DNA of 35,237 nucleotides from positions 1 to 35,237 of IMG/VR virus record IMGVR_UViG_3300033149_005356; one strand, written 5' to 3'. Shown piece by piece: positions 6,209 through 23,330 of this stretch. Under the pieces are notes generated by a model that was not told the origin of the DNA, did not search any database, and saw nothing but the letters and a program-made list of their open reading frames with translations. Origin of the DNA: a virus. A program made the translations under genes and the position numbers. Numbering within the stretch: position 1 is the stretch's first letter; each line of letters begins with the position of its first letter.

Positions 6209-6244
6209 TATGGAACCTCCATTAAAAAATTTTACCCTCCGGCC

Positions 6245-6274
6245 AGAAGGGAGAGGAAAAATCCTCTCCCTTCT
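6245..6274 (-). terminator. Perfect 13-bp hairpin after the tail tube gene
   Basis: AGAAGGGAGAGGA and TCCTCTCCCTTCT pair perfectly around a four-base loop, starting 9 bases beyond the tube gene stop. On the minus strand the stem is followed about 14 bases later by a T-rich tract (AAAATTTTTT). It may be a partial terminator or a 3-prime stabilising hairpin that separates abundant tube mRNA from the chaperone and tape measure genes. Confidence 0.7.
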
Positions 6275-6282
6275 TCATAGCC

Positions 6283-7434
6283 TTATCTGAAGGTAATTTT
6301 GAATTCGTCATTCAAGGTTGCCGAAGCAACTGCGATGAAAGGAACCGTTTCCGTAAATTCCTCATCTCCCGCAATCGTCGGAGTCCGATATTCGGCATAA
6401 GGAATTGAAAGCTCCATGATTTTTCCATCGACATTTCCAGCGGGAATGATCAAAGCATCAGATTGCTGCCATTCTGCCCGATAGAAATAAGAAAGACCCT
6501 TTTTCAAGAAATAGAGCTCCAATTCTCCCTCGATTTCCCTTTTTCCCGGCCGTCCAAATCTCTCAGCAACCCATGAATTGTTCTTCTCATCGAGATAATA
6601 TTTAATGTTATTCGCCATTGTCACCGAGGCCGTCAAGACGACACAATTGGCTCCTCCGACGGTAACCATCCCGATTTTTCCGTGAACGGGCTCACCGACC
6701 TCTGCAGAGGAAGAAGGCCACCATGGAGTGATCAATTGGACCCCAGAAGGAGAGGGAGTTCCTTGAACGGTAATAACGTCGGTTGTGTAATTGACTCCAG
6801 TGATGAGAAATCCTGCTCCTGAATTATCATCCAATCCGACGTTAATATACATTCCCTCTCGATAGAGTTGGGCTCCTCCGGTTTGGAGCGTGATATCAGA
6901 GCCAGAAATCGAGGCCGAGTAGGTTGTTCCCGCCCAAAGCTGCTCCATGTAATTTCCATCCCACGAGATTTGAGCAATCTCCGCTCCAGAGATAGAGAAA
7001 CTTGCGCCCTGAATCGTCGCGCCCCTAAAGGCGAAAACCGAATGGCCTTTCTTGACCCAAATGGAAAGCGAATCGAGCGAATCAGCAAGGGAATATTCAA
7101 CCTTTGTCCCTGCTGTTATCGCCTCTGTTCCCATTAAGGCTTGAAATAAGGCTGCGTGTTCGGGCGGCGTTCCTTTTGTTCCGCTCGGCTTCACGTAGGT
7201 ATCGAAAGAAAAATCTCCAGGATTCTTCCTTCCCTTAATAGGAGAAGTCCGAGATGCGGCGGAACGAATCTGCTCATCATCTAAGAACTCCTGTTCCTGG
7301 GAGAAATCAACCGGACCAACGGTATACATTCTGTCATCTGCCGTCATCTTCTTCAGGGTCCCGCAATTATCTTCGATAATTGCGAACATTTCTTCTTCAT
7401 TCGCTAAGGCTAATCCCGTATCGCAATTTGCCAT
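6283..7434 (-). CDS. Major tail tube protein (putative)
   Basis: This 383-residue protein lies immediately upstream of the chaperone pair, where the tube gene is expected. AAGGAG lies about 8 nt before the ATG. It is beta-rich, with many Gly, Ser and Thr and few lysines, unlike its helical neighbours. An early stretch (about residues 56-85) contains SAASRTSPIKGRKNPGDF, then TYVKPSGTKGTPPEHAALFQ, a pattern I associate with tail tube or major tail proteins of siphovirus-like phages. A region around 165-225 looks like an additional inserted beta-domain (Ig-like decoration). The gene ends at a strong hairpin, as expected for a highly expressed structural gene. A tail sheath is not seen next to it. 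Confidence 0.8.
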   Translation of the reverse strand: MANCDTGLALANEEEMFAIIEDNCGTLKKMTADDRMYTVGPVDFSQEQEFLDDEQIRSAASRTSPIKGRKNPGDFSFDTYVKPSGTKGTPPEHAALFQALMGTEAITAGTKVEYSLADSLDSLSIWVKKGHSVFAFRGATIQGASFSISGAEIAQISWDGNYMEQLWAGTTYSASISGSDITLQTGGAQLYREGMYINVGLDDNSGAGFLITGVNYTTDVITVQGTPSPSGVQLITPWWPSSSAEVGEPVHGKIGMVTVGGANCVVLTASVTMANNIKYYLDEKNNSWVAERFGRPGKREIEGELELYFLKKGLSYFYRAEWQQSDALIIPAGNVDGKIMELSIPYAEYRTPTIAGDEEFTETVPFIAVASATLNDEFKITFR

Positions 7435-7447
7435 TTTTTAATCTCCT

Positions 7448-7642
7448 TCAAATCTCTTCATAACCATAACCCTCTCGAATTTTCCAATTTTTGGAACTTC
7501 GGAGAGCATTGGCAATTTTCTCAGAGACTTCGAATTCTTTTCCGATATGGACCCTACCCACACCGGATAATCGGATATTCTTTTGTCGACCTATATAGGT
7601 CACAAAATATCTCTTTATTCTTCTTCTTCTTTTTCTAACCAT
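7448..7642 (-). CDS. Small basic hypothetical protein, tail region
   Basis: A 64-residue protein starts with the strongly basic MVRKRRRRIKR and continues with a compact beta-like part. It lies between the second tail-terminator-like gene and the tube gene, 13 nt before the latter starts. AGGAGAAT precedes the ATG. The segment GKEFEVSEKIANALRSS (about residues 33-49) resembles small proteins in phage head-tail modules that carry a short F-x-V-x-x-x-x-A-x-x-L motif, but I cannot name a family. It is likely co-expressed with the tail genes. Function unknown. Confidence 0.75.
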   Translation of the reverse strand: MVRKRRRRIKRYFVTYIGRQKNIRLSGVGRVHIGKEFEVSEKIANALRSSKNWKIREGYGYEEI

Positions 7643-7654
7643 TCATCTATTCTC

Positions 7655-8080
7655 CTATGTAGCCAATTGGTTCAAACAATACAACATTCTAAGCGTCATC
7701 TCATACCAGAAGAGGGGCATTATTCCCTCAATTGGAGAAATGCCGGTGATCCAACAGGCTTGTATATATCCGCCGAGATGAAATTCTTCGCCGATTTTAT
7801 CTCGAATGGCCTTCATCAATGCCTCATAGGTTGGGGTTGGATTCTCACCCCAATTAATAAACCAAACTTTTATCTTCATTTCCAAAGACATGATGGATCG
7901 CCGTCCAGTCATCTCCTGTTCCGTTGCTTCCTCCGGCTCCCGAATCTCGATCAGCGGCAAATCTGAAGAGGAATATTGTGTCATATCAATATTCATATAA
8001 GTTCGGACGACGGTCTGGATTCCAGAAACCTCCCTCAATTTCGTCTCAAGCGTATCCAAAATATCTCTTCTATTTGCCAT
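7655..8080 (-). CDS. Tail terminator-like protein, copy 2
   Basis: A 141-residue protein begins MANRRDILDTLETKL and is clearly related in its first part to the preceding gene (shared I-L-x-x-L-E-T-K-L-x-x-x-S-G-I pattern, then a P-L/G-I-x-I acidic loop and a hydrophobic strand ending in W). The chosen start has GGAG 5 nt upstream; a GTG two codons earlier is in frame but less favoured. It lies between gp10-like and tube genes, the usual place of the tail terminator, a small alpha/beta protein that closes the tail tube (lambda gpU type). The role is inferred from position and fold pattern. It could also be a neck or joining protein if the other copy is the true terminator. Confidence 0.78.
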   Translation of the reverse strand: MANRRDILDTLETKLREVSGIQTVVRTYMNIDMTQYSSSDLPLIEIREPEEATEQEMTGRRSIMSLEMKIKVWFINWGENPTPTYEALMKAIRDKIGEEFHLGGYIQACWITGISPIEGIMPLFWYEMTLRMLYCLNQLAT

Positions 8081-8082
8081 TT

Positions 8083-8511
8083 TCACTCCGAACTAAAGAA
8101 AATCACCTGAATCGCTATGATAAACATTCCTTGCGGATGTCTCGTTCCTCCATCCGTTTGGATTGAAGTGATTTTCGTATCATAAGCCTTCGAATTTCTG
8201 GTCGGGTCCGTTCGAATCGCGTCTTTAACATCCTCAATAAAAGAATTCATTTTCGTTGCCAAATCCTCTCTCGCAGAGGCAAGAACCCAGCCAACAAGGG
8301 CGATAGAAAAGGTATTACGAACGATATCCGAGAGAAGATATTCCTTATCCTCTCGAATATCATTTATATAAATTCCTGGATATTTATCGATATCTGCTCC
8401 GGCAAAAAGAACCCTCTGATAATCGACGAATTTTATTCCAGAAATCGCCGACAATTTTGTTTCTAGATCGGCCAAAATTTCTTCTTTCGTTCCGAGTCCA
8501 TAATATGACAT
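8083..8511 (-). CDS. Tail terminator-like protein, copy 1
   Basis: A 142-residue protein contains EILADLETKLSAISGI near the N-terminus, a tyrosine-proline step (D-K-Y-P-G-I-Y-I), a central hydrophobic strand and a C-terminal I-x-I-Q-V-I-F-F segment. This pattern and size match minor tail/terminator proteins of siphophages. Its ATG overlaps the stop of the preceding gp10-like gene (TAATG), and its stop is 2 nt from the start of the related next gene. The two probably arose by tandem duplication. Which one caps the tail, and whether they form a hetero-oligomer, cannot be told from sequence. Confidence 0.8.
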   Translation of the reverse strand: MSYYGLGTKEEILADLETKLSAISGIKFVDYQRVLFAGADIDKYPGIYINDIREDKEYLLSDIVRNTFSIALVGWVLASAREDLATKMNSFIEDVKDAIRTDPTRNSKAYDTKITSIQTDGGTRHPQGMFIIAIQVIFFSSE

Positions 8512-8990
8512 TATGACATTCCTCTGCCAATCATGCTTAGAGTCTGCTGAATATATTGATTCAGCAAAACTTCTGTCTCTCTCTCTCCTTGCTCAATCAT
8601 CCTATAAGCCGGCGTTCCCGGATGGCGAACAAGGTAAGCGAACATGTGTGCTCCAGTATCCTCATCCAACCAATGAAGAGGATATCCCGCTTTCCTCGGT
8701 CTTATTTGATGCGGCTTCGTGCCGACTTCGAAGAAAAGAATGACATCTTGATTCTCATAAAGATTATGAATTATATATTCTTCAATCGTTCCTCTAGATG
8801 AATGCTCAATCTCCCAAAGCTCTCTAATATTAGTTCCTTTCGTCGGCGGCGTATATGCCTTCACTCGCCGACGCGCCTCATCGGCCAATTGCGCAAACGT
8901 CACCTTCGCATAAGGAATCAGTTTCGTTCCCAAATTGCCCATTTTTGACGTGAATATCGAAGCATCCCATCTAAATTTCGCGTTTATCAT
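8511..8990 (-). CDS. HK97 gp10-like head-tail joining protein
   Basis: This 159-residue protein carries the pattern typical of the HK97 gp10-like family: a glycine-threonine-proline-histidine step (EVGTKPHQIRPRKAG, about residues 88-102), then a leucine-tryptophan step, F-A-Y-L-V-R-HPGTPAYRMI near residues 117-131 and a C-terminal helix. Family members sit at the neck between connector and tail. The start ATG overlaps the upstream stop (ATGA), consistent with a coupled operon. The order connector, gp10-like, terminator, tube is the standard siphovirus arrangement. Confidence 0.88.
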   Translation of the reverse strand: MINAKFRWDASIFTSKMGNLGTKLIPYAKVTFAQLADEARRRVKAYTPPTKGTNIRELWEIEHSSRGTIEEYIIHNLYENQDVILFFEVGTKPHQIRPRKAGYPLHWLDEDTGAHMFAYLVRHPGTPAYRMIEQGERETEVLLNQYIQQTLSMIGRGMS

Positions 8991-9670
8991 TGACTATAGA
9001 GCAGCGCCTTTACGTTTAGCTCCTGATAAAAATCCTTCTTCTTATCAGCAGCGATTTTATGAATTTCCGTCGCAGGATAGGTAACCATCCCCCCCTCCCT
9101 ATGGATTCCTCCAAGATTGCTTCTCTTCATGGCAATAATATCGAGGCATTTCCACGTCGTTCCCGTCACAAGCAACGATTCAAAATTGGAAGGAAGTTTA
9201 CTCAGCGTCCAATTCGATTTTTCGACAGAAACATAATAATATTTGGTTCCATCCTCTTCCGGCATCGGGTCTATTTTTAATTTTTTCTCAACAGGATTGA
9301 ATTGAAATTGTACTTTTGGAAGACCTCTTTTCCTCCTCATCATTCGAATCGTCCAGAGAGAAGGAAAATCATAATATTCATTTTCTGTGCCCCCCTCGAT
9401 CGTCGGGTCTCCCAACTTCATTATATCCTCATCTATTCCCTCCCAAGTGATCACCTCCTGAACTCGAATAGTATTTGCATGAACATCATATTCTCTTTTA
9501 TCTGCTTCTGATGTTATATATCGAAGATTTTTCTCCACGATTCTCTCGGCAATTTTATCCAAAATGAAATTTCCTTCTCTTATAATATCCACATCTTCTA
9601 ATTCGATCGAATTATCAACCTTACCACATTCTGCTCTAACGGCCTTTACCAAACTTGCTTCTGTCATCAT
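8987..9670 (-). CDS. Head-tail connector/adaptor-like protein (putative)
   Basis: A 227-residue protein precedes the gp10-like gene. It has an N-terminal helical part, several W and Y residues in beta-like strands (about 140-165, with IDPMPEEDGTKYYYV), then a helix-rich C-terminus. The placement directly before gp10-like and terminator genes matches the adaptor (gp6/gp15-like) protein that attaches to the portal ring. The start is supported by GGGGAAG upstream and a second ATG follows immediately. Sequence alone does not prove the family; a structural neck protein of another type is possible. Confidence 0.72.
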   Translation of the reverse strand: MMTEASLVKAVRAECGKVDNSIELEDVDIIREGNFILDKIAERIVEKNLRYITSEADKREYDVHANTIRVQEVITWEGIDEDIMKLGDPTIEGGTENEYYDFPSLWTIRMMRRKRGLPKVQFQFNPVEKKLKIDPMPEEDGTKYYYVSVEKSNWTLSKLPSNFESLLVTGTTWKCLDIIAMKRSNLGGIHREGGMVTYPATEIHKIAADKKKDFYQELNVKALLYSQ

Positions 9671-9812
9671 TCTTCCCCTTTGTCAAAACCACCAATTCTT
9701 TTTCTTCCTTCGGAAAAAGAAGATGTTCATTTCCAAAAGCATCTCGAATCAGAACATCATAATCTTGATTATTCCGATATCGGATTCTTTTGAGATGAAG
9801 CTTTTTTACCAT
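9636..9812 (-). CDS. Small hypothetical protein joining cassette and tail genes
   Basis: A 58-codon frame starts MVKKLHLKRIRYRNN. Its ATG overlaps the stop of the fucose-synthase-like gene (ATGGTAA) and its 3-prime end overlaps the start of the connector gene by 35 nt. It fills what would otherwise be an empty 135-nt stretch. The product is mixed basic and acidic, with a compact core D-Y-D-V-L-I-R-D-A-F-G around residues 17-27, reminiscent of small beta-strand-rich phage head proteins. No family was recognised. Confidence 0.65.
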   Translation of the reverse strand: MVKKLHLKRIRYRNNQDYDVLIRDAFGNEHLLFPKEEKELVVLTKGKNDDRSKFGKGR

Positions 9813-10759
9813 CTTTCAATTGCTTTTTGATAATTTTTATCAAACCACTCAATCGTTCGCCGCAATCCTTCTTTCAAAGAAATCTCAGGAACCCAATTGA
9901 GTTCTTTTTTCATTTTAGATATATCGAAAATTTTCTTCGCCTGACCATCTGGTTTCGAAGAATCCCAGATGATCTCCCCTTTAAAATCGACGATTTCGGA
10001 AATCATCTCGACTAATTCTCGAATCGACGTTCCTATTCCTGTCCCAATATTCAACGGTTCCGTATCATCATATAATTCCGTGGCCTTTATGATCCCATCG
10101 GCCGCATCGCCAACGTAAAGAAATTCTCGGATCGGGCTCCCCGTCCCCCAGACCTCAACCGAAGGGGCGTTGTCCTTTTTCGCCTCGACAAATTTCCTTA
10201 TCAACGCGGCCACAACATGAGATCGCTCCGGATTATAGGAATCCCATTCTCCATATAAATTGGCCAGAAGCAGATGAATCCCGTTAAATCCATATTGCTT
10301 TTTATAGGCTTCGCATTGAATCTGCATCATCTTCTTCGTCATTCCATAATTTCTCACGGATTCATGGCATGGACCATCCCAAAGATTCTCCTCCTTCAAT
10401 TCTCCCTCAAGATACCCAGGATAAGAGCACGCGGTCCCAATTCCGACAAACTTCTCAACTCCGTAATCCTTCGCGGCCTCGATAATATTCGCACCCATGA
10501 TAAGATTTTGGAAATAGATGTCGGCAGGATATTTCTTATTAATCCAGATTCCCCCATAATAGGCCGCGGAGTGGATGACAATATTTGGCCGATGTCTATC
10601 CATCATCTCTCGGACTTTCTTTAAATCTGTCAAATCATATCCTTTTTTTCTAGGAATAAACATAAACGATGGCTTTTTTGCCCACACTCTCTCCGCGATC
10701 CTTCTTCCAAGAAATCCAGCGCCGCCGGTAATGAGAACTCTTTTTCCTTTAATTTCCAT
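9806..10759 (-). CDS. GDP-L-fucose synthase-like NAD(P)-dependent epimerase/reductase
   Basis: This 317-residue extended short-chain dehydrogenase makes or modifies an activated sugar in the cytoplasm. The Rossmann motif GGAGFLG lies near residues 11-17. The segment YYGGIWINKKYPADIYFQN and the later GTACSYPG closely follow GDP-L-fucose synthase, and the catalytic Tyr-x-x-x-Lys is YGMTK. The start with GGAG 7 nt upstream (residue sequence MEIKGKRV) is preferred to an ATG seven codons earlier. The gene overlaps the preceding 73-residue gene by 11 nt. GDP-mannose dehydratase, which would supply its usual substrate, is not in the window, so the host may provide it or the substrate may differ. Confidence 0.88.
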   Translation of the reverse strand: MEIKGKRVLITGGAGFLGRRIAERVWAKKPSFMFIPRKKGYDLTDLKKVREMMDRHRPNIVIHSAAYYGGIWINKKYPADIYFQNLIMGANIIEAAKDYGVEKFVGIGTACSYPGYLEGELKEENLWDGPCHESVRNYGMTKKMMQIQCEAYKKQYGFNGIHLLLANLYGEWDSYNPERSHVVAALIRKFVEAKKDNAPSVEVWGTGSPIREFLYVGDAADGIIKATELYDDTEPLNIGTGIGTSIRELVEMISEIVDFKGEIIWDSSKPDGQAKKIFDISKMKKELNWVPEISLKEGLRRTIEWFDKNYQKAIERW

Positions 10760-10970
10760 TTTTATTCTCCAAAACGGCAAAAATTCTAATTTCTATATTA
10801 TCCGGATTTTCCTTCATTTCTCGTCTAAGGGCTGCTTCTGCCGCCTTGATAAGATTATTCTCCATTTCATTTCTTGGCATAATTCCTATTCCAGTAATCA
10901 TTTCAGAGGGGCATAGAACGGTAGCTTCGATTATTGCTCTTATGATTTTTTTGTCGAATTTCTCAGACAT
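10749..10970 (-). CDS. Hypothetical protein between two epimerase genes
   Basis: A 73-residue protein begins MSEKFDKKIIRAII. It overlaps the upstream epimerase stop by 8 nt (ATGTCTGA) and AGGAGAG precedes the chosen start; an alternative in-frame ATG eight codons earlier would lie before that ribosome site. It has two helical segments, one around a conserved-looking M-P-R-N-E-M-E-N-N-L, and ends in a beta strand (N-I-E-I-R-I-F-A-V-L). It is inside a sugar operon, but no catalytic motif is visible and I do not recognise the family. Confidence 0.75.
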   Translation of the reverse strand: MSEKFDKKIIRAIIEATVLCPSEMITGIGIMPRNEMENNLIKAAEAALRREMKENPDNIEIRIFAVLENKNGN

Positions 10971-11895
10971 TTGAATATTCTCTCCTAATTTCAAATGATT
11001 TGAATAGACCGATAAGTCGGTCTATCGATGCATCCAAATTCATGATCGTATTAAATCCGACTCGTTTTATTTTCTGATATGAAACCTCATAATCTCGTTT
11101 ATCCTCATCATGTCCGATATCTGCGTAATGGAGATAAAAATCCGGAACCTTTTCTTTTATTAATTCGCAAATATCTTGTTTAGAAAGATTCATTTCTTCA
11201 GAGCCGACGTTGAAAATACCATCTTTCATCTTTTCAAATTCTTTTAATCCATAATGAAACGCCCGCGCCATATCCAAAACGTGAATAAATGTTCTTCTGA
11301 AATGCCGCTCATAAACGACGAGATTTTTTTCCTTGACGGCCTTGAAGCAAAAATCATTTATCATCAAATCAAGTCGCATTCTCGGAGATATTCCATATCC
11401 CGTCGCGAATCGATAGATAATAAAATTTCCCCGCTTCTTAATGGCTTCCTCTGCATCGGCTTTCGATTTTCCATAAATCGTCAACGGCCGCAATGGAAGC
11501 TCCTCATGACAGATGCCTTCGACATTTCCATAACAAGAGCCGGTTGAGGAGAAAATAATAGGAATATTTGAAGAAACGGCCTCTGTGATCGATTGTGTTC
11601 CATTTTTATTAACCGACATAGCCAACTGCTCATCCTTCTTGCAGATTGGATAGCCAACGAGCGCTGCGAGGTGAATAATAGCATCACAGCCTTTCGCGGA
11701 ATCCCTAAGAAGAGAAATATCCCTAATATCTCCCTTTATGAATTCAAAATTTGGATGATTGAAGCAGCCAAATAGCCCATTGATCCCATAGAGAAGAGAA
11801 TCATAGACGCGGACTCTATAGCCTCTATCTAGGAGATAAGGAATGAGGACCGATCCAACAAATCCAGCCCCTCCGGTCACGAAAATTTTATTCAT
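10963..11895 (-). CDS. NAD-dependent nucleotide-sugar epimerase/dehydratase
   Basis: A 310-residue extended short-chain dehydrogenase starts MNKIFVTGGAGFVGS, with the NAD-binding GGAGFVG at residues 8-14. An F-I-K-G-D-I-R-D segment follows at about 50-57, then L-A-A-L-V-G-Y-P, a Ser near SSTGSCYG and the catalytic Y-G-K-S-K. The C-terminal part (FNVGSEEMNLS) fits substrate-binding regions of UDP-glucose-4-epimerase-like enzymes. I chose the ATG that overlaps the cupin stop by 8 nt and has a purine-rich ribosome site; a longer frame extends into the cupin gene and is unlikely to be translated. Substrate specificity cannot be read. Confidence 0.88.
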   Translation of the reverse strand: MNKIFVTGGAGFVGSVLIPYLLDRGYRVRVYDSLLYGINGLFGCFNHPNFEFIKGDIRDISLLRDSAKGCDAIIHLAALVGYPICKKDEQLAMSVNKNGTQSITEAVSSNIPIIFSSTGSCYGNVEGICHEELPLRPLTIYGKSKADAEEAIKKRGNFIIYRFATGYGISPRMRLDLMINDFCFKAVKEKNLVVYERHFRRTFIHVLDMARAFHYGLKEFEKMKDGIFNVGSEEMNLSKQDICELIKEKVPDFYLHYADIGHDEDKRDYEVSYQKIKRVGFNTIMNLDASIDRLIGLFKSFEIRREYSNV

Positions 11896-12247
11896 TCTCT
11901 TCCCTTCCGTAAAAATCTTTAACACGAACCGAATCCTTCGGATAAGGAGATGAAACTTCGAACAAAACAACAGCCTCTTCAGGCAAAGCCTCAAAATTAT
12001 GGATCATTCGAGGATAGATATGAACGCGCTGTCCTGGAGAATAAATTCTTCCAGTTTTTCGCTTATTGCATTTCATCTGACCAGAATAAAGGAAGAGCGT
12101 CTCCTCCTTCTTCTCGTGATAATGAAGAGAGACCTTTTCATTCGGATTTATTCGAATGACCTTTCCAAGATAATCCTCCGTCAACGCGAACCAAAGCTCT
12201 TCTCCCCAAGGCTTCTTAACAATTTTAATTTGCTGCAATTTTTGCAT
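11888..12247 (-). CDS. Cupin protein, phosphomannose isomerase type II-like
   Basis: A 119-residue single cupin domain carries the K-P-W-G-E-E-x-W motif (residues 12-19) of the type II phosphomannose isomerase / GDP-mannose pyrophosphorylase C-terminal domain. Metal ligands are visible as H42, H44, E49 and H83, in the order H-x-H-x4-E ... H. Alone, without the pyrophosphorylase domain, it may isomerise a sugar phosphate or act on another sugar nucleotide. The ATG is directly adjacent to the upstream TGA (TGAATG), so translation is coupled to the sulfotransferase. Its neighbours make or use activated sugars, which fits. Confidence 0.85.
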   Translation of the reverse strand: MQKLQQIKIVKKPWGEELWFALTEDYLGKVIRINPNEKVSLHYHEKKEETLFLYSGQMKCNKRKTGRIYSPGQRVHIYPRMIHNFEALPEEAVVLFEVSSPYPKDSVRVKDFYGREENE

Positions 12248-12967
12248 TCATCCCTCCCGATGATATCCTAATTTTTCCATCTCCTCCCCGGCATAATCCC
12301 AAATTTTTCCCAACATTTCTTCTGAAAAAACTTCTTTCCATCCTCCGGATTTTCCCCGAAGCCCCAATATCTTCCGATGGACTCCATCTTTCTCGGCAAT
12401 CGATTTCAATCTATCAAACCTCGTTCTCTCAATCGCTTCCTCGATGACTTTCTCCTCATAATGCAAGTTCAGAAATTCGAAAACTTCCATTAAACATTCT
12501 TTCGTATTGATGAGAAAATCTTCATATTTGACAGGATAGAACGTCAGCGAATTCTCTTTTATCAACCAATAATTGATATGCTCTTTCCATCCTCCAAATG
12601 GCTCCTTTCCAGGAATAAATTTCTTTTCGAGATATTCTTCGAAGGATAAGCCCGCGTTCTCTCTATAATGAAAATGGAAATAAGAAATCGCAACATCCCG
12701 GACATCTCGATAAATATAAATAATTGGAAACATCATATAAGCAGGATGAAAGCAAAAATGAGATTTAACAAAGATAGGACTCCAATCAAATTCCTTCTTT
12801 TCCATTTCTTCCCAAGTATAATGCTGGTGAATATCGGGAACCATTTTATCTCTATCAATAAAATGATACGTCCTAAGCTCCTCCGGATGCTGGATATTCG
12901 CTATCAGCAAACGAAACCACGTATTTCCCGATCGAGGATAAGAGACTAAAAAGACGAAATCGGTCAT
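12248..12967 (-). CDS. PAPS-dependent sulfotransferase
   Basis: A 239-residue protein has the sulfotransferase 5-prime phosphosulfate-binding loop YPRSGNTW at residues 10-17 and a 3-prime-phosphate motif of the type I-Y-I-Y-R-D-V-R-D-V-A-I-S around 82-94. The length is typical for the family. It transfers sulfate from PAPS to a hydroxyl or amino group on a glycan, lipid or small molecule. GGGAGGAGAG lies just before the ATG. It is in the glycan operon, so a glycan acceptor is likely; the true acceptor is not visible. The host must supply PAPS, because no ATP sulfurylase or APS kinase is seen here. Confidence 0.9.
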   Translation of the reverse strand: MTDFVFLVSYPRSGNTWFRLLIANIQHPEELRTYHFIDRDKMVPDIHQHYTWEEMEKKEFDWSPIFVKSHFCFHPAYMMFPIIYIYRDVRDVAISYFHFHYRENAGLSFEEYLEKKFIPGKEPFGGWKEHINYWLIKENSLTFYPVKYEDFLINTKECLMEVFEFLNLHYEEKVIEEAIERTRFDRLKSIAEKDGVHRKILGLRGKSGGWKEVFSEEMLGKIWDYAGEEMEKLGYHREG

Positions 12968-13007
12968 ATTCTCTCCTCCCAGAACGCCTCCTCATCTTTA
13001 TTAAAAA

Positions 13008-14036
13008 TCAATAAGGAATCTCCCTCTTGATGAAAGAATCGGCGATTCTTACCTTTATCTCCGGCATTTCGGAGTCAATCGCATGTTTCAATTTATGAAA
13101 TCCATCCGCCAGCATCATAGTATTTCGATTATAGATGAGAGGAAAAAACATGAATGGAATAAACTCATTTTTGAATTTCCAAGCTTTCATCTTATCCTCT
13201 TCTCTAATCTTTTTCATTTTATCTGGAATTTCCCGATCTTTTCTTCTCCTATTTTCTTCCCAGATATCAAGCCATTTCCTTAATTCTGGATGTCTCGTCG
13301 GCGCGATTAAAATCGTATCTGAAGGATAATCCTTCAAATCATCAGATTCTGATATTTTAATCTCTGGCATCTTTTTGCCAATTATTATACCTCTAATATT
13401 TCTTCTTTCTGGATTTGAATGATAGGAGAAATCTTTCGATACGATTCTTATTCCAACAAATTCGAAAAAATATTGAATCACGCCGATGGAGGCGGCATAA
13501 ACGGATTTGAGATTTGGTATAGGAGAATTATCATTCGGCCGCCATTCAACGATTTTCAATTCTGGGGTATTCAAAAAATATCCTTCAAGAATAACCGCCT
13601 CTCTGCAAGAATAGGCCAATTTGAAAATAAATCTTCTATAAGAAGAAGAAGGCACGTAATGAGCAACCCCAAGGCAGATGATGAAATCGAACGCGCGCGC
13701 TTTGAAATCGAAATTGAAAATATCCTTAGATTCAAATCGAATCGTCTTCTCATCCAGACCCAGCTTATTTCTGACATCTTCTCCTATTTTTATAATTTCT
13801 TTCCTTATATCAAATCCATGAACGAAACGCGCCCCGCGCGCCCAGGCTTCAATCGATGAATATCCCGCGGCGCATCCGACGTCCAAAGCAGATTTGTTTC
13901 TCAAATCGATTTTATCTCCGAATCTCTCCCATTTCTGGGCGGCAAAATCGCAAAGATGATGCTCCCTCCCTCCACGTGCGCCTCTTCGATATCCAAATTG
14001 ATTTAGAGATTCATGAAATAAATTCTTATGCACCAT
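13008..14036 (-). CDS. Class I SAM-dependent methyltransferase (342 residues)
   Basis: The SAM-binding motif ALDVGCAAGYSSIEAWARG lies near residues 49-67, followed by an acidic motif II (H-G-F-D-I-R) and motif IV F-D-F-I-I-C-L-G-V-A-H-Y. The segment R-G-A-R-G-G-R-E-H-H-L-C-D-F precedes the fold and resembles the N-terminus of DUF1698-type and carboxymethyl-uridine methyltransferase-like proteins. The C-terminal ~120 residues are a separate helical part of unknown function. The start overlaps the upstream methyltransferase by 11 nt and GGAAGAAAG is upstream. In this operon it is likely to O- or N-methylate a sugar. Confidence 0.85.
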   Translation of the reverse strand: MVHKNLFHESLNQFGYRRGARGGREHHLCDFAAQKWERFGDKIDLRNKSALDVGCAAGYSSIEAWARGARFVHGFDIRKEIIKIGEDVRNKLGLDEKTIRFESKDIFNFDFKARAFDFIICLGVAHYVPSSSYRRFIFKLAYSCREAVILEGYFLNTPELKIVEWRPNDNSPIPNLKSVYAASIGVIQYFFEFVGIRIVSKDFSYHSNPERRNIRGIIIGKKMPEIKISESDDLKDYPSDTILIAPTRHPELRKWLDIWEENRRRKDREIPDKMKKIREEDKMKAWKFKNEFIPFMFFPLIYNRNTMMLADGFHKLKHAIDSEMPEIKVRIADSFIKREIPY

Positions 14037-14742
14037 CTTTCTTCCTCCTCAATAGAATCCATCCCTCCGCTTGTTTAGACAAATCATAAGAATTCCAAAT
14101 CTCGCAGAGCCAGAAATCAAACTTTCCTATTTCGACAAATCTTTTAACCCAGAAATTCCAAGGATAAATCGAAACATGTTCCCTCGTATTCGTTTCAATA
14201 GATAAATCCGATAGCCAAGGTTCGGAATCCCAACTATGAACGGGAGATCGAATTAAAATCACCTTCGAAGCAATTCGATTTATTTCTCGTATCGCATCCA
14301 TGAATTCCTCAATATAAAGATGTTCAAGAAGATCAAAGGCCGTGATCATGTCAAACTCATTATCTTTCCAATCTGACATATTTCTAACGTTCATAATCTT
14401 CAAAAATGGACGAACATTCGGAGAGGATTTCTCGATTGCCTCTTTCGAAATATCGCATCCCCAAGCTTTTATATTGTTTCTCCTCAAAAGAGAGACGAAA
14501 AATCCCATCCCACAACCGACATCTAAAAGAGAAGAAGGATCAATTTTATATTTTTTTATGAATCCTAACTTTTTTTCTGCCTCTCGTTTCACGGTTTTAT
14601 TCTCCTCATCTGGTTTCATATTGAAACGCCATTCCCAGGCCCTCCAAAAAGCATCATCATAAAAGCAAGAAGTCGAGCGGTCCTTCCTGGACTGCTTCTG
14701 CTTCTCTATTGACCATTGCTGGAATTCTTCTTCTCTATTCAT
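14026..14742 (-). CDS. Class I SAM-dependent methyltransferase (238 residues)
   Basis: A compact methyltransferase has LLDVGCGMGFFVSLLRRNNI at about residues 92-111, motif II WGCDIS and motif IV M-I-T-A-F-D-L-L-E-H-L (D-x-L-E-H). The N-terminal ~85 residues contain W-R-A-W-E-W-R-F-N-M, a short aromatic segment common in sugar or small-molecule methyltransferases. It overlaps the preceding glycosyltransferase fusion by 4 nt (ATGA). It probably methylates a glycan made by the neighbouring enzymes; the exact target cannot be inferred. Confidence 0.87.
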   Translation of the reverse strand: MNREEEFQQWSIEKQKQSRKDRSTSCFYDDAFWRAWEWRFNMKPDEENKTVKREAEKKLGFIKKYKIDPSSLLDVGCGMGFFVSLLRRNNIKAWGCDISKEAIEKSSPNVRPFLKIMNVRNMSDWKDNEFDMITAFDLLEHLYIEEFMDAIREINRIASKVILIRSPVHSWDSEPWLSDLSIETNTREHVSIYPWNFWVKRFVEIGKFDFWLCEIWNSYDLSKQAEGWILLRRKKDGA

Positions 14743-17480
14743 ATTCTTTCCGTTTGATGGAATCTATCAAAAAACAATTCCTCCACCGCCTCGACTTTTT
14801 CGAGCATCTCCTCCAGAGATAATCTTTTTAAACATTCCGGAATATCAATATTTTCTTTTGCCCGATGAGGCCCGCCACCCATGCAGGGGACGAAGAAATC
14901 GCAATAATTCTTATCATCATAAAATGGGCAATGTCCTTGAATAGAAATCATTGAATCAAACATTTTCTCAAAAATTTTGCCGTTTCGATTCGAGAATATC
15001 GTCAAAACCGGAATATCAATCGTTCCCGCAAGATTTGAGATTCCCGTATCAGGAGATATCACGAAATCGGCCGTCGATACGATTGCCGCCGCCTCCCGAA
15101 ACGAATGTGGCGCGTTATCATCATCATCATAAACAATATAAACTGATCCTCCATTTTTTCTCTTAGATAATTTATCAAATAAAGCCCGCATGTGTGGCCA
15201 GACCTTTAACTTATTGCTTCCCTTCATGACCATCGCTATTCTTGGACGACGAGAATTCGGCCAGATTGTCTCCGCCCATTCTCTTTCCTCATCAGTAACG
15301 AAATAATACGGCTTGAGGCTCCCATCAAGTCCAATCGTATTCAAATAGATTTCTGTCCTTGCTGATCTAATCTCTCCAAATTCTCTCATCTCTTGAAGCT
15401 CGACGCGAAATTCTAAATCCGTCAAATCGATCCTAAAATCCGAAGAACCCCTTGTGCCTACAGGAAAGACGTTATCGATATATGGATTCGGATTCAAAAG
15501 AGAAACGAATTTATCCGGAACATAATAATTTATCTCAACATTATCATTAAATTTTTCCCTAAGAGCCCTAGCTAAAACCGTTGTAAAGAGAATATCTCCA
15601 TATCCCCCCATTCTTCTCTCAATTCTGATGACCGCTTTTCCTTGTTTATCGATAAAATCCTTTATTGATTCATACGAAACATCGCGACGCCACTCCAAAC
15701 CCAGCTTTTCTAATTTCTGATCTTCGTGAGGATGGATACCCCAAATCTCCTTAAATATGCCGACGTTTCGATTCCAATTCTCATCATATTTAGCTTTTTC
15801 TCCTTCGACCATCTTGACGACGCCGCCGAGAACGTGGAAATAAATAGCCCCCTCCGCGCGGACGAATCGTCCTCCAGCCAAACGCAATCGAAGCGTATAA
15901 TCATTATCCTCAATATATCGAGGCTCAAATCTCTCATTGAAGAATCCGGTCTTCTCGATCGCTTCCCTCGTAAATAGAGTGCAGGAATAAGAGCCGGCAG
16001 GAATATTTCTTATCTCTTCCCATCCAAGTCCCCTCGGTTTCGCGGCATCGACGCCCCAGGGCGGTGTGCCGGGGATTTCCGTCGACATCGCGGCCCAGGC
16101 GCCGGAATTATCAAGACACCGCACTAATTGATCGATCGTATCATATCTCAAAACTAGATCATTATTCAGGAGGAGAAGATAATCATAATCTCCAGATAAG
16201 AATTTCTGAAGGCCGATGTTTTGGGCCGCGGCTACGGAGGTTTTTTTCGAGATAAAATCGAAGCCTTTTTCTCGAAGCCATTCCTGCGTCCCATCATCCG
16301 ATTCATTATCGACGATGAATATATCGTAATCATGAAAGGATCGAATCGACGCGAGCGCTTTCTTCGTCATATCCAGAAGATTATAAGTCAGCATCAAAAT
16401 CAAAATCTTTTTGGAAGGATTCAATTGCTCTTCGACCTTTTCGATTATCTTTTCCGGCTCCAATAGAGATAAACATTTCGAATATCCAGAAGAGGCTTTC
16501 TCTTCATAACTCTCTCCAGGAAGACAAGGAACCGCCCACCAACAAGGCGATTTTTTATAAGGGCAATCGGCTTGGATGAAAACGGCTTTCTCATAGGCTT
16601 CAGTGAATATCCGTCCGTCCGTATGACCAAAGACTCCGACGATTTTTTTCTTCAACGCTCCTGCCAGATGGAGGATTCCAGAATCGGCCGTCAAAATAAC
16701 GTCGCATTCGCCGACGATCGCGGCCATCTCTCGGAATGAAAATTGATATTCCCCATTATCATCTCTATCATCTAGGATGATAATTGAATATCCTTTATCT
16801 TTCAGAAGTCTTGAAACGTCTCCCATTCTCGGATATGTTCTCGCTTGGGCCGCAGACTCCAAGCCGATGCCGATAATAGGTCTTTTCATTTTTCCAATAT
16901 AGGATTTAGCCTTCTTTTTCTCTGATTCTTTTATTTTATAAATGGGAGTTTTATTGACGAGCGATAATTTTGATCCATGGAGGAGAATATCGATGCAGCT
17001 TCCTTGCCCACAATCGAATTTCATTTCAAGATTATCGACAGAAAATTGGACATCATATTCTTCTGAAATCTCAGATTCATCATTGAAAATATTTCTGATA
17101 TACGTATTTCCTTCCCAAATTAAATTCATGGATTTTGGGATAAGAATATCGAAATTGACGGCCTCGATGCCATATGTCTCAACATAAGCGGCCGGAATAA
17201 CGGTTATCATTATCTGATCCCCGAATTTATCGATCCTCCCTGCCTTCATGAGAATATTTAAATGTCCTTTCTCATTAACAACCTTCTGCGCAGCCAACCG
17301 CGCGTCCCAGAACTCGGGAGCAGAGAAATAGGTTTTAATATCCAGACCTTTTATGCTTCCAACAAACCGCGCTTGTCCTGGTTTCAATTCGAACGTCCCC
17401 GAATGATCCATAATGATCTTCGTAATGTCAGATTTATTGACATAGATAATTCCATGCGGCAATCGATATTTTTTTACCAA
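14739..17480 (-). CDS. Multidomain glycosyltransferase: GT9-like, GT2 and GT9
   Basis: A 913-residue fusion. Residues 1-195 are of unknown fold. Residues ~200-350 look like the nucleotide-binding half of a GT9 heptosyltransferase (I-G-I-G-L-E-S-A, then DVILTADSGILHLAGALKKK and a Cys-rich P-Y-K-K-S-P-C-W-W). Residues ~357-590 are a GT2 family inverting transferase (I-L-M-L-T-Y-N, I-V-D-N-E-S-D-D-G-T, L-L-L-N-N-D-L-V-L near 436-444 as metal-binding motif). Residues ~615-905 are a complete GT9 domain (M-G-G-Y-G-D-I-L-F-T near 624-633, later DTGISNLAGTIDIPVLTIF). The frame starts at TTG, with GAGG 5 nt upstream, 7 nt after the preceding GT9 stop; no better ATG start is near. It is probably cytosolic and adds several sugars in sequence. 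Confidence 0.9.
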   Translation of the reverse strand: MVKKYRLPHGIIYVNKSDITKIIMDHSGTFELKPGQARFVGSIKGLDIKTYFSAPEFWDARLAAQKVVNEKGHLNILMKAGRIDKFGDQIMITVIPAAYVETYGIEAVNFDILIPKSMNLIWEGNTYIRNIFNDESEISEEYDVQFSVDNLEMKFDCGQGSCIDILLHGSKLSLVNKTPIYKIKESEKKKAKSYIGKMKRPIIGIGLESAAQARTYPRMGDVSRLLKDKGYSIIILDDRDDNGEYQFSFREMAAIVGECDVILTADSGILHLAGALKKKIVGVFGHTDGRIFTEAYEKAVFIQADCPYKKSPCWWAVPCLPGESYEEKASSGYSKCLSLLEPEKIIEKVEEQLNPSKKILILMLTYNLLDMTKKALASIRSFHDYDIFIVDNESDDGTQEWLREKGFDFISKKTSVAAAQNIGLQKFLSGDYDYLLLLNNDLVLRYDTIDQLVRCLDNSGAWAAMSTEIPGTPPWGVDAAKPRGLGWEEIRNIPAGSYSCTLFTREAIEKTGFFNERFEPRYIEDNDYTLRLRLAGGRFVRAEGAIYFHVLGGVVKMVEGEKAKYDENWNRNVGIFKEIWGIHPHEDQKLEKLGLEWRRDVSYESIKDFIDKQGKAVIRIERRMGGYGDILFTTVLARALREKFNDNVEINYYVPDKFVSLLNPNPYIDNVFPVGTRGSSDFRIDLTDLEFRVELQEMREFGEIRSARTEIYLNTIGLDGSLKPYYFVTDEEREWAETIWPNSRRPRIAMVMKGSNKLKVWPHMRALFDKLSKRKNGGSVYIVYDDDDNAPHSFREAAAIVSTADFVISPDTGISNLAGTIDIPVLTIFSNRNGKIFEKMFDSMISIQGHCPFYDDKNYCDFFVPCMGGGPHRAKENIDIPECLKRLSLEEMLEKVEAVEELFFDRFHQTERI

Positions 17481-17487
17481 TTGATCC

Positions 17488-18507
17488 TCACCTCATCATG
17501 GATTCCAATTTACGGCAAATTTCTTTATATATTCTTTCAGGAGAGATTTTCAGACAAGAAATCTCATCATGACATTTTTCCGATACTTCGAAACAGCTTT
17601 TGCATTTTATCGTTCGATTCAATTGAACGGCCATCGCCGCGTCTGGATAGAATGGATGGAGAGATATTCTTTCAGAAGGTCTCGATGGGCCGAGAATAGC
17701 AATGACGGGAGTTTCCGTAAAATGGGAAATCCAAAGAGGAGAAGAATCCATTGAAATCAATAAATCTGATTTCCCTATGAGCGTGAATAGCTGAGATAAA
17801 GATAAATCTCGGAAGAATAGCCGTGACATTTCTCCATCAATGCCCTCGGCTGAGAATTTATTACCGATGAAGGCCACTCGAATTCCGTTCTCATTCAATT
17901 TTCTTATAATGAATCTTATCGCATCATCTTGAAGGCTCTTTTTTCGCCCGGAACCTTTTCCTTGAAAAACGATATATGGTGACTCTATGAATTCATCTTC
18001 AATCGATTTGAAATTATTAAGATCACAACTCCAATCGACTCTTCTAGGCAGATTATCGATCCCTAGAGCCATCATATAAATATGAACCCTATGAAATTTT
18101 TGAAGCGTTTTTCGAACATGATCCCGCTCGACCGTTCCATCAAGAATCAACCCATAATCGGAATATCTTTTTCCCTCTATCGACATCACCTCTATTCCCA
18201 GCGCGTGGAGAACTTCGTAAAAAACCTTTGAAGTGACAATATATGGAGAATATCCAAGCGTGCGAAGATAGCGAATGACGGGAACAACCATAAGAACATC
18301 TCCGATAGAAAAGGAGCGTTGAAGATAGAATCTCCGTATTCCTTTCCTATCCATCTCTTCCAGAAAATTTCCAATCGGCCTCAACGATCTCGTATGAATG
18401 TGGGAGATATCAACCGCAACGTTTTGTTCAACCGTCCACGCGACGCCCATTCCATCGAAGAAGGTTTTCGTCACTCCGGTCTCATTAATCGCTAAATTAA
18501 ATGCCAT
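17488..18507 (-). CDS. GT9-family glycosyltransferase (heptosyltransferase-like)
   Basis: A 339-residue protein has the GT9 layout: an N-terminal S-I-G-D-V-L-M-V-V-P-V-I-R-Y-L segment near residues 65-80, and a C-terminal half with LLISMDSSPLWISHFTETP, then ILGPSRPSERIS and a Cys-rich R-T-I-K-C-K-S-C-F-E segment. The D-S-S/T-x-x-H and P-x-R-x-x-x-R patterns belong to ADP-heptose LPS heptosyltransferases and relatives. The first ~55 residues are additional. AGGAG precedes the ATG. It is the first gene of the glycan cassette, only 77 nt after the major capsid gene, with a perfect hairpin between them. Confidence 0.88.
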   Translation of the reverse strand: MAFNLAINETGVTKTFFDGMGVAWTVEQNVAVDISHIHTRSLRPIGNFLEEMDRKGIRRFYLQRSFSIGDVLMVVPVIRYLRTLGYSPYIVTSKVFYEVLHALGIEVMSIEGKRYSDYGLILDGTVERDHVRKTLQKFHRVHIYMMALGIDNLPRRVDWSCDLNNFKSIEDEFIESPYIVFQGKGSGRKKSLQDDAIRFIIRKLNENGIRVAFIGNKFSAEGIDGEMSRLFFRDLSLSQLFTLIGKSDLLISMDSSPLWISHFTETPVIAILGPSRPSERISLHPFYPDAAMAVQLNRTIKCKSCFEVSEKCHDEISCLKISPERIYKEICRKLESMMR

Positions 18508-18534: not shown

Positions 18535-18562
18535 CTGGAGGAGGCCGTAGGGCCTCCTCCAG
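18535..18562 (-). terminator. Perfect 12-bp hairpin after the capsid gene
   Basis: CTGGAGGAGGCC pairs perfectly with GGCCTCCTCCAG around a 4-base loop, 22 bases beyond the capsid stop. There is no strong T-tract after it on the minus strand (CATTGATTTC), so it may attenuate rather than fully stop transcription, or protect the abundant capsid mRNA from decay. Confidence 0.72.
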
Positions 18563-18584: not shown

Positions 18585-19811
18585 TTAAGAGGTTGTGAGA
18601 GTCACGGTTGCTAAACCGTTATTCTTGACGGGGCTTTGGGTCGAAGACTCTGGAAGGACTCCATACGCGTACCGAGTCATTGCCCCTCTTGCGAATTGAG
18701 TGAAATCATCAGAGATGATGTATTTCTCGCTCACGAAAAGAGGAATATACGGCGCGTAATATCCCACCGCGTATTTCCAATTCTCACCTTTGACCCCGAG
18801 AAGAATCTTATTGGCCGTGAACCAAGGATCAACATAGACTTTGAAGATATTGCCGATGACGCCGACATATCGTCTTCCGATTTGACCCGCTTGCGCGATG
18901 GCAAGAGGATCGACGTTGAATTCCTCCAACGATGCTAATCGGGTGTAGACGGCCGGCGTGGTCACGAGCCAAGAGGCGTTGACGAATTTCTTTTCAACAA
19001 TTTTCTGATTCGCTTGGAGAATCGCCTCATAGAGCTTTCGATCATAGGCCCGTTTATCCGCGGTCGTGGTATCTCCCACCGGATATGACGTGTTCCATTC
19101 AACATCATTCGCGGCTCCGGCCAACAGCGCGGCAAGAATCTTTCGATCGACCTCTCGGATGACCTCTTCGGTCAGCTGCGGCATCAGCTCAGCTTCCAAA
19201 TCTAATTTCCATTGACTTCGAAGGTCCTGCTCCGCTTCGATCGTCCAATCTGCCTTCAGCTTTTTGGTTTCGCATTCAATGAGCTTCTTGGTCAATTTGT
19301 ACTGGATTTCCCGGATCGTTCCCTGCTCAGAAGAATCCGAATACGTATCCGAATCCTGATGATCCGAAAGAAGATCGCCGGATGAAATACCATCCGCCGC
19401 GTGCGCGGACGTGTAGACGTGATCGAGCCAATAGATATAGCCCGTCGGCCCAGACAACGGCTGGACCGAAACCAAGTCCATTGCGATCAGAGACGAATAG
19501 ATTCTTCGAACGGCCGGCAAGAGAGAAGTCGTGAAGGTCGCGACCGCAGTCGACAGCGTATCCTCATGAAGAACTCCGGGCTGAGAGAGCTTCAAGAATT
19601 CATTCTGCAGAGTCTTATTTGCCTGAGAGCGAATCCAATCGAGCGTATTGATATAGAGCATCTCCCTCAATCCAATCTCCCTTCCGGTCTTCGGATCAAT
19701 GGTTGAGAAATCTCCCCGCTGAACCTGGCGGGAGTTGACGCCCTCGACCTCATCCAGTCTCAGCATTTCCTGCTTCTGCAATTCTAGAAATCTGAAAACT
19801 TTTTCGAACAT
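18585..19811 (-). CDS. Major capsid protein (HK97 fold, T4 gp23-like group)
   Basis: A 408-residue protein follows the prohead protease gene. It contains TAVATFTTSLLPAVRRIY, then SGPTGYIYWLDHVY (about residues 119-132), E-L-M-P-Q-L-T-E-E-V-I-R-E-V-D-R (about 209-224) and a K-L-Y-E-A-I-L-Q-A-N-Q-K-I helix, all in the order seen in gp23-type capsid proteins. Residues after ~290 fit the domain that ends with a beta-rich K-Y-I-I-S-D-D-F-T-Q-F-A-R-G segment. AGGAG lies before the ATG, overlapping the protease stop (CAGGAGTAA). The N-terminal ~60 residues could be cleaved during maturation. It should be the most abundant virion protein. Confidence 0.92.
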   Translation of the reverse strand: MFEKVFRFLELQKQEMLRLDEVEGVNSRQVQRGDFSTIDPKTGREIGLREMLYINTLDWIRSQANKTLQNEFLKLSQPGVLHEDTLSTAVATFTTSLLPAVRRIYSSLIAMDLVSVQPLSGPTGYIYWLDHVYTSAHAADGISSGDLLSDHQDSDTYSDSSEQGTIREIQYKLTKKLIECETKKLKADWTIEAEQDLRSQWKLDLEAELMPQLTEEVIREVDRKILAALLAGAANDVEWNTSYPVGDTTTADKRAYDRKLYEAILQANQKIVEKKFVNASWLVTTPAVYTRLASLEEFNVDPLAIAQAGQIGRRYVGVIGNIFKVYVDPWFTANKILLGVKGENWKYAVGYYAPYIPLFVSEKYIISDDFTQFARGAMTRYAYGVLPESSTQSPVKNNGLATVTLTTS

Positions 19812-22553: not shown

Positions 22554-22790
22554 TCATCGCGCGTCCGTCGCGCGTTCGATATCATCATCCTTTTTCTCTT
22601 GCGCATAGATCACGCGATCTAACGCCTCGATAGCCTGCACGAGATTACGTCTCTGCTCATGAAGGCTTTTCATACGAGCAACGATGTGTCTATACAATAT
22701 CTCCGCTTTCGCGATTTCTTCCTCCACATCCGCGTGTCGTTCCATCAGATTATCGATCGCGTCTCTCACTCTTGTATCCGCCGCCATCAT
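22554..22790 (-). CDS. Small coiled-coil hypothetical protein
   Basis: A 78-residue protein starts MMAADTRVRDAIDNL. Almost the whole chain is helical with heptad-like spacing of Leu, Ile and Ala, charged Glu and Arg between, and a Q-E-K-K-D-D-D-I-E acidic tail. Two ATGs occur in tandem; the first overlaps the upstream stop by 4 nt (ATGA). Such small coiled-coil proteins are common beside capsid genes of phages, but no family is recognised. Confidence 0.7.
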   Translation of the reverse strand: MMAADTRVRDAIDNLMERHADVEEEIAKAEILYRHIVARMKSLHEQRRNLVQAIEALDRVIYAQEKKDDDIERATDAR

Positions 22791-23086
22791 GATATCTCTG
22801 ATTCTATGATCTTCAGAATCCGTTTGAATTCTTCGAAAGATTCAGGAAAATCAATAATTTTTTCCTCGAAAAGACGTTTGAGGACGCGGAACGCCCGCGA
22901 CGCGCTGCTGCTCTCCTCCGCGTTGGACCGCACATACGTCCACGAATCCGGAGGACCATAACAAACGTGCGGCGCTTCGCTCGGCACCCATTGTCGGCAA
23001 TCCGGGCACGTCCAGCCGTCCGAACAACTTTTTTCAATCAAATAATTTAGGTCCGACGTATAACCCAGCTCTTCCGCGTCGCGCAT
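22787..23086 (-). CDS. Small zinc-binding hypothetical protein
   Basis: A 99-residue protein starts MRDAEELGYTSDLNY. The segment C-S-D-G-W-T-C-P-D-C-R-Q-W (about residues 21-33) followed by H-V-C (about 40-42) gives C-x2-C and H-x-C pairs that could hold a zinc ion. AAAGGAGG lies 6 nt before the chosen ATG, much better than that of an upstream in-frame ATG which overlaps the previous gene. The C-terminal half is a charged helix ending L-K-I-I-E-S-E-I-S. It may be a small nucleic-acid- or protein-binding adaptor. Confidence 0.74.
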   Translation of the reverse strand: MRDAEELGYTSDLNYLIEKSCSDGWTCPDCRQWVPSEAPHVCYGPPDSWTYVRSNAEESSSASRAFRVLKRLFEEKIIDFPESFEEFKRILKIIESEIS

Positions 23087-23102
23087 CAAATACCTCCTTT
23101 CC

Positions 23103-23330
23103 TCATTTATTGATTCTCTCTCCATCTCTCGTGACGAAATGCGTCGCGGATCGTCCCGTTATATAGAGTCCGGAGAGGCCGACGATGAGCGCGGCCATCT
23201 TATAAAGAAACATCACGTCGATATCGGAAAAGATGGAGAGGAGGAGACAGAAATCGATATGCAAGAATCCAATCAATAGAGAGAAGAACCGCGTCCTCCT
23301 CATCCCTCTCTCTTTCCGATCATTCGACAT
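23103..23330 (-). CDS. Two-helix membrane protein, holin-like
   Basis: A 75-residue protein starts MSNDRKERGMRRTRFF, with a basic N-terminus and two probable membrane segments: F-F-S-L-L-I-G-F-L-H-I-D-F-C-L-L-L (about 15-32) and F-L-Y-K-M-A-A-L-I-V-G-L-S-G-L-Y-I (about 41-57). GGAG with a 9-nt spacer supports this ATG. Together with the next upstream gene, also a small membrane protein, and the spanin-like gene, it suggests a lysis block. A holin or antiholin role is inferred from topology only. Confidence 0.7.
   Translation of the reverse strand: MSNDRKERGMRRTRFFSLLIGFLHIDFCLLLSIFSDIDVMFLYKMAALIVGLSGLYITGRSATHFVTRDGERINK

Follow-up and report, generated by a model that had tools for sequence, protein, structure and literature searches.

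A head-operon glycan gene cassette with conserved ends and an exchanged middle in a lineage of uncultured tailed phages

Why would a tailed phage carry a run of sugar-modifying genes within its virion operon, and where would the resulting glycan go? These questions are raised by IMG/VR record IMGVR_UViG_3300033149_005356, a linear fragment of 35,237 bases which makes up the complete record (hereafter the window). Nine minus-strand open reading frames (ORFs) occupy positions 9806-18507, between a Gp23-type major capsid gene and the neck and tail genes. In the direction of transcription they encode a single-domain GT9 glycosyltransferase (GT), which we call GT9a, a GT9-GT2-GT9 fusion GT, two methyltransferases, a sulfotransferase, a cupin, a short-chain dehydrogenase/reductase (SDR), a small protein without a family and a second SDR. 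An earlier reading made from the letters alone (the sequence-only reading) had described nine co-directional genes at these positions and assigned them to these families; the ORF check confirmed the positions, and Pfam, PHROGs and NCBIfam the family calls. Some listed ORFs begin too early, and with the preferred ATG starts at 10759, 10970 and 11895 the overlaps of 4-11 nt that it reported are found at five of the eight junctions, the remaining three measuring 0, +7 and +40 nt. At the flanks, its major capsid gene (PF07068) stands, whereas its label of head-tail connector was partly inference: the 3' neighbour (8987..9670, minus strand) is called adaptor-like by its position and conservation only, and its product has no hidden Markov model or PDB match.

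Such a block could be a recent insertion or a trait of the lineage. We sought relatives in IMG/VR with the capsid or the tail-tube protein as query, leaving the cassette genes unused, and recovered contigs whose capsid identity is 41-60%. GT9a and the fusion GT are the next two genes after the capsid gene in 10/10 contigs that could be tested, that is, those in which the capsid gene and downstream DNA are present. The ten include two near-twin pairs, leaving eight that are clearly distinct and fewer if closer kin are merged; further contigs, found with GT9a as query, are not independent evidence. The sequence-only reading had proposed a comparison of synteny, to which a recent insertion absent from close relatives would have been the unfavourable answer, and the cassette proves to be a lineage trait with exchanged contents. 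Since the block recurs in every relative testable without selecting on it, its placement is beyond chance, and because it is the same block in the same place the cassette appears linked to the virion genes instead of riding along as a passenger. Two distant relatives (~30-36% capsid identity) have no such genes adjoining the capsid gene in the sequence available. A search for hosts, scanning 84,980 genomes with the capsid protein and the fusion GT, found no phage of the lineage and only unrelated matches to the GT2 region, and tblastn with GT9a, the fusion GT and the sulfotransferase gave no match in a collection of 50,697 phage records. These comparisons suggest that the lineage is absent from that collection and that the fixed place of the cassette within it is new.

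What is conserved is the two ends of the cassette. The two GT genes follow the capsid gene. The opposite end is marked by a WcaG-like gene ahead of the adaptor gene, both in the window and, among relatives whose contigs include that end, in most; 032053_3738, 031999_6 and 035158_315, a contig that is cut off, are exceptions. The junction with the neck genes also holds a conserved protein of 58 residues (9636..9812, minus strand), overlooked in the sequence-only reading, which overlaps the start of the adaptor gene; seven other contigs have homologues directly 5' of their adaptor gene, and we count this small gene as a member of the block. A possible 108-residue version is seen at L025:18977-19303.

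The middle differs between relatives. There we found sulfotransferases of two Pfam families, methyltransferases, radical SAM/SPASM proteins, a LicD-like protein with a cytidylyltransferase-like one, DUF2284, DUF362, asparagine-synthase-like and GFO/IDH/MocA proteins, a hexapeptide acyltransferase and more GTs of families GT2, GT1 and GT4. The block of 024432_1659 reaches ~18 kb and, judged by eye only, adds deacetylase-, formyltransferase- and ATP-grasp-like genes. The Cj1427-like dehydrogenase gene of the window is absent from 033150_1135, 024432_1659, 031999_6 and 032053_3738, and two relatives encode homologues of its cupin away from the cassette. The G+C content of the cassette is 1-5 points under that of both flanks in several contigs, though not in all. 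O-antigen and capsule loci are laid out in this way too, with conserved ends around an exchanged middle. That decorating genes are exchanged suggests that variety of the particle surface is under selection, for example in adsorption, shielding or stability.

Further features of the block were noted among the relatives. Small helical proteins of ~80 residues (SLVDKL..NLK..RN.L..EID) are recurrent members of the cassette and absent from the window (L016:7991-8242, L017:13651-13884, L021:18247-18501, L030:1134-1385 and L034:2348-2599); they are presumably similar to the DUF4254 proteins found beside GT9 genes. In 3300033150_001135 the sulfotransferase gene (L021:15902-16646) is split into two ORFs, and it is intact in the near-twin 3300033156_000195 (L028:15525-16310). 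A second Sulfotransfer_1 gene (L012:4778-5488; G003, 22.8 kb) lies outside the cassette, amid small early-type genes. In contig 047586_336 an HNH/NUMOD3 homing-endonuclease gene (L024:19900-20748) separates the capsid gene from the start of the fusion GT, and GT9a is displaced to L024:9986-11029.

What activity do the two conserved GTs point to? The AlphaFold2 model of GT9a (17488..18507, minus strand), built with 14 sequences (predicted local distance difference test score 89.5), has the GT-B fold of the GT9/heptosyltransferase type. Its best PDB matches are 3tov, a GT9 of unknown role, TibC and the lipopolysaccharide (LPS) heptosyltransferases WaaC and WaaF, with 3tov and TibC forming the top group in Foldseek. 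TibC is a protein O-heptosyltransferase whose N-terminal beta-barrel (residues 1-97) is required for activity on protein and whose iron finger is built from four cysteines (PMC4358343). GT9a has an N-terminal beta domain of ~57 residues that is absent from WaaC and WaaF; the alignment with TibC begins at residue 8 of the model in one chain (4rap_L), while those with WaaC and WaaF begin only from residue 58. Four C-terminal cysteines, C302, C305, C312 and C318, are invariant in 14/14 sequences. By model and alignment, GT9a has the GT9-like GT-B fold in common with TibC and AAH, the bacterial autotransporter heptosyltransferases (BAHT), and its N-terminal beta domain and the four conserved cysteines of its C-lobe may be counterparts of the TibC barrel and iron finger. 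It differs from them in its shorter N-terminal domain, in the spacing of the cysteines and in its surroundings, where no autotransporter partner is seen nearby and the neighbour is a capsid gene. In our reading of the model GT9a may work as a TibC-type protein GT, and it is a candidate member of that family.

The fusion GT (14739..17480, minus strand; 913 residues) carries an N-terminal beta extension of ~50 residues that is like that of GT9a (hhalign 94%; hmmsearch 2.8e-5 in one fusion GT). Direct BLASTP between the two GTs of the window found nothing. This likeness suggests a common docking part. The small beta motif of the 58-residue protein is also weakly like the N-termini of the GTs (hhalign probability 0.5% and 45%); with scores this weak we dropped the idea that they form one family and keep it as a lead.

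Most of the remaining genes are consistent with the supply and capping of sugars. The last of the nine genes (9806..10780, minus strand; likely start ATG 10759) encodes a C3/C5-epimerase C4-reductase of the WcaG type, matching GDP-fucose synthase (1bsv) with an E value of 8e-62. Its C118, Y145, K149 and H188 line up with the catalytic Cys109, Tyr136, Lys140 and His179, so that it keeps both the Cys/His epimerase dyad and the Tyr/Lys reductase pair of a GDP-L-fucose synthase; roles for the Cys and His residues in epimerase/reductase catalysis have been described (PMC7949155). Its score of 277.8 bits is below the NCBIfam equivalog cut-off for GDP-fucose synthase (500 bits), and the product is predicted to be GDP-fucose-synthase-like, with an exact substrate that the score does not fix. 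An ORF of 81 residues without a family (10749..10994, minus strand; ATG 10970 possible) separates it from the second SDR gene (10963..11994, minus strand; likely start ATG 11895), which encodes a sugar-nucleotide C4-dehydrogenase-like enzyme. The best solved match of this enzyme is 6vo6 (290 bits), which we take to be Cj1427 of Campylobacter jejuni. Cj1427 is a C4-dehydrogenase acting on GDP-manno-heptose (PMC10680097). Together, the two SDR enzymes could turn a GDP-manno-hexose or GDP-manno-heptose into a sugar of L-galacto type.

Upstream of these lie a cupin like the C-terminal part of mannose-6-phosphate isomerase (11888..12247, minus strand) and a sulfotransferase dependent on 3'-phosphoadenosine-5'-phosphosulfate (PAPS) (12248..12967, minus strand), which matches Sulfotransfer_1 (PF00685) at 106 bits against a cut-off of 22. 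The sulfotransferase contains the PAPS-binding and catalytic motifs YPRSGNTW, KSH, YRDVRDVAIS and GKSGGWK, and most relatives retain the active-site motifs of both it and the WcaG-like enzyme. Further upstream are two S-adenosylmethionine (SAM)-dependent methyltransferases, at 13008..14036 (LDVGCAAG) and 14026..14742 (LDVGCGMG), both on the minus strand. Our scan covered 11 records from the lineage, including four that measure 92-101 kb; all are fragments, so absence from them is not proof. Neither adenosine-5'-phosphosulfate kinase nor a GmhA-type SIS_2 protein was found in these records, and for this reason we assume that PAPS and heptose are supplied by the host. In the literature, the phrases searched returned no paper on phage-encoded sulfotransferases and nothing relevant on phage heptosyltransferases acting on virions.

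The same 11 records bear on where the glycan goes. The search for base-modifying enzymes covered the thymidylate-synthase type (hydroxymethylase), which was found in 0/11 records and, by the same search, in 9/14 control genomes. A membrane initiating GT (PF02397) was likewise found in none (controls 9/14), and neither was a flippase (PF01943; controls 13/14). A hydrophobic stretch is present in 7/126 cassette proteins, several of which are soluble SDR enzymes. As such enzymes are missing from the 11 records and membrane proteins are few, both DNA modification and a secreted surface polysaccharide are disfavoured. The GT genes lie inside the virion structural operon, the placement expected of a phage virion glycosylation system, and a protein-linked glycan made in the cytoplasm from within this operon is the simplest remaining reading. 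The sequence-only reading had inferred a cassette that builds a methylated and sulfated glycan, on the virion or on the infected host surface; families and place agree with its first part, and the host surface is disfavoured as the target by the results just given.

We therefore think it likely, going by sequence and model, that the cassette builds a glycan with sulfate and methyl groups on one of the phage's own virion proteins, in the cytoplasm and late in infection. GT9a, built like TibC, would attach the first sugar to Ser/Thr of an abundant virion protein. The candidate acceptors are the Gp23-type major capsid protein encoded by the 5' neighbour of the cassette (18585..19811, minus strand; PF07068, 1e-51) and the major tail (tube) protein (6283..7434, minus strand), assigned by its position and 60-64% identical in the closest relatives. 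The first sugar would probably be a heptose drawn from the nucleotide-heptose pool of the host, to which the three-domain fusion GT could then add up to three sugars. From a GDP-manno-sugar, hexose or heptose, the C4-dehydrogenase-like and WcaG-like enzymes would make an L-configured sugar nucleotide; these activities are predicted from family and catalytic residues, and the substrates are our suggestion. The sulfotransferase and the two methyltransferases, using host PAPS and host SAM, would cap the glycan.

How could such genes be expressed beside that of the capsid? A strong, GC-rich RNA hairpin with a 12-bp stem (18535..18562, minus strand), terminator- or attenuator-like, lies between the capsid gene and the cassette. 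In 15/15 contigs tested a GC-rich hairpin comes after the stop codon of the capsid gene; the sequences are unrelated, the shape is similar and the z values are -3.5 to -7.4 against mononucleotide shuffles. A similar hairpin stands after the tail-tube gene in the window (6209-6282, minus strand) and in most close relatives. The hairpins after these two genes are probably attenuators or stabilisers, and elements of this kind behind two bulk structural genes would permit abundant capsid protein alongside small, catalytic quantities of the enzymes.

Several observations weigh against this scheme. The phages are uncultured and the lineage is known from its sequences alone. GT9a is as near to the LPS heptosyltransferases, which have a glycolipid acceptor, as it is to TibC, and the VIA Z of the model (20.0 for TibC, 20.5 for WaaF and 18.8 for WaaC) does not separate them; its cysteines are spaced CX2CX6CX5C and those of TibC CX2CX15CX11C. 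In 047586_336 GT9a is not beside the capsid gene, and the interval in 031999_6 includes DUF2341 genes, so that not everything in it is a glycan enzyme. The Ser/Thr-rich capsid C-terminus is partly missing in some contigs that bear GT9a, and a distant capsid protein without the cassette is likewise Ser/Thr-rich there. By analogy with mycobacteriophages we considered this C-terminus as the acceptor, and it is conserved in most relatives, yet for the last two reasons it does not discriminate.

Other destinations have points in their favour. GT9 enzymes are classically LPS heptosyltransferases, the sugar-nucleotide enzymes could feed host glycans and related WcaG-type genes occur in large marine phages, while LPS-type gene clusters in some cyanophages have been proposed to alter the host surface. 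The cassette might accordingly remodel a surface glycan of the infected host (LPS, capsule or S-layer glycan), blocking superinfection or changing the host during infection; with no initiating GT or flippase found in the 11 records, few membrane proteins and a cassette fixed in the virion operon of all testable relatives, we consider this unlikely. It is rather doubtful, too, that the glycan serves as an adsorption ligand on a specific minor virion protein (a fibre, a neck protein or the 58-residue protein) instead of a coat. The conservation of the 58-residue protein at the cassette end, its faint likeness to the GT N-terminal motif and the DUF2341 genes of one relative would fit; the weak hhalign scores do not help, and adjacency to the capsid gene points to a bulk acceptor.

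Glycosylation of modified bases in the phage DNA is a well-known use of phage GTs, but it is very improbable here, as no thymidylate-synthase-type enzyme was found in the 11 records, the four of 92-101 kb included, and sulfo-, LicD- and WcaG-type genes, heptosyltransferase-like folds and a locus among virion genes suit it poorly. We give hardly any credence to the view that the interval from capsid to neck genes is a hotspot for cargo, gathering passengers without a virion role. The lower G+C content in several contigs, the exchanged middle and the homing endonuclease at one junction would fit this view, and yet both GT genes are kept in all testable relatives at 41-60% capsid identity, and active-site residues are retained.

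The surrounding genes are those of a virion operon. A head-maturation protease gene (phrog_207) precedes the capsid gene. Beyond the adaptor-like gene come a gene at 8511-8990 and a tail-terminator match at 8083-8511 (E 4e-5), with tail-assembly chaperone and tape measure genes further downstream of the neck genes; neither portal nor terminase was recognised in the annotation of the 35-kb record. A putative tail-fibre protein (65-565) is 93% identical to one in 3300033149_004834 (22749-23348), where the tail-tube protein is 48% identical, and a fibre gene was likely exchanged recently. A 549-residue protein (24542-26191) without a PHROG match is glycoside-hydrolase-like by eye and has a 30% homologue in G003 (60280-61830). 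Trypsin-like protease genes (G001 7162-8091 and G003 74600-75532; GPGDSGG motif by eye) lie near the lysis/cupin region of two relatives.

If a glycan on the phage's own virion protein is what the cassette makes, phages with fixed glycan genes and exchanged decorators would vary the surfaces of their particles in the manner of bacteria, phage-encoded sulfotransferases would gain a role and protein O-heptosylation would enter phage biology. More tentatively, and as a possibility that goes further than our preferred reading, this tailed-phage lineage with T4-type capsid proteins may possess a serotype-like head-operon locus. Priming of a virion protein would fall to a protein O-heptosyltransferase resembling TibC, and interchangeable enzymes for sulfo, phospho, methyl and acyl modification would provide every phage with a glycan coat of its own, much as bacterial surfaces are diversified by O-antigen loci. 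With those bacterial loci and with capsule loci the cassette shares conserved ends, an exchanged middle, lower G+C content in several contigs and similar enzyme families; it differs in that no initiating GT or flippase was found in the 11 records and in its place between phage capsid and neck genes. Marine phages have WcaG-type enzymes 37-39% identical to that of the window, and LPS-type clusters are known from cyanophages such as P-SSM2.

The capsular GDP-heptose modification of C. jejuni (Cj1427/MlghA and C4-reductases; PMC10680097, PMC7949155) has the same pairing of a C4-dehydrogenase-like with an epimerase/reductase enzyme, whereas here no separate RmlC-type epimerase is seen and the gene order is phage-specific. 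Glycosylation of phage particles is known experimentally mainly from mycobacteriophages, and with this precedent the principle of virion glycosylation is already established. Che8, Corndog and Myrna likewise have GT and methyltransferase genes in the virion operon next to capsid genes, and PMC12619734 and PMC12363180, citing Freeman 2023, report glycans at the C-termini of mycobacteriophage capsid and tail-tube proteins. In Corndog an O-methyltransferase and GTs lie between portal and protease (PMC4351075), and in our lineage the genes lie between capsid and neck. The GTs here are also different, and they are joined by sulfotransferases, heptose-type sugar-nucleotide enzymes and a middle that is exchangeable across the lineage. 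Judged by sequence comparison, what appears to be new is this enzyme set, together with its constant position across the lineage and an exchange of decorating genes like that of O-antigen loci.

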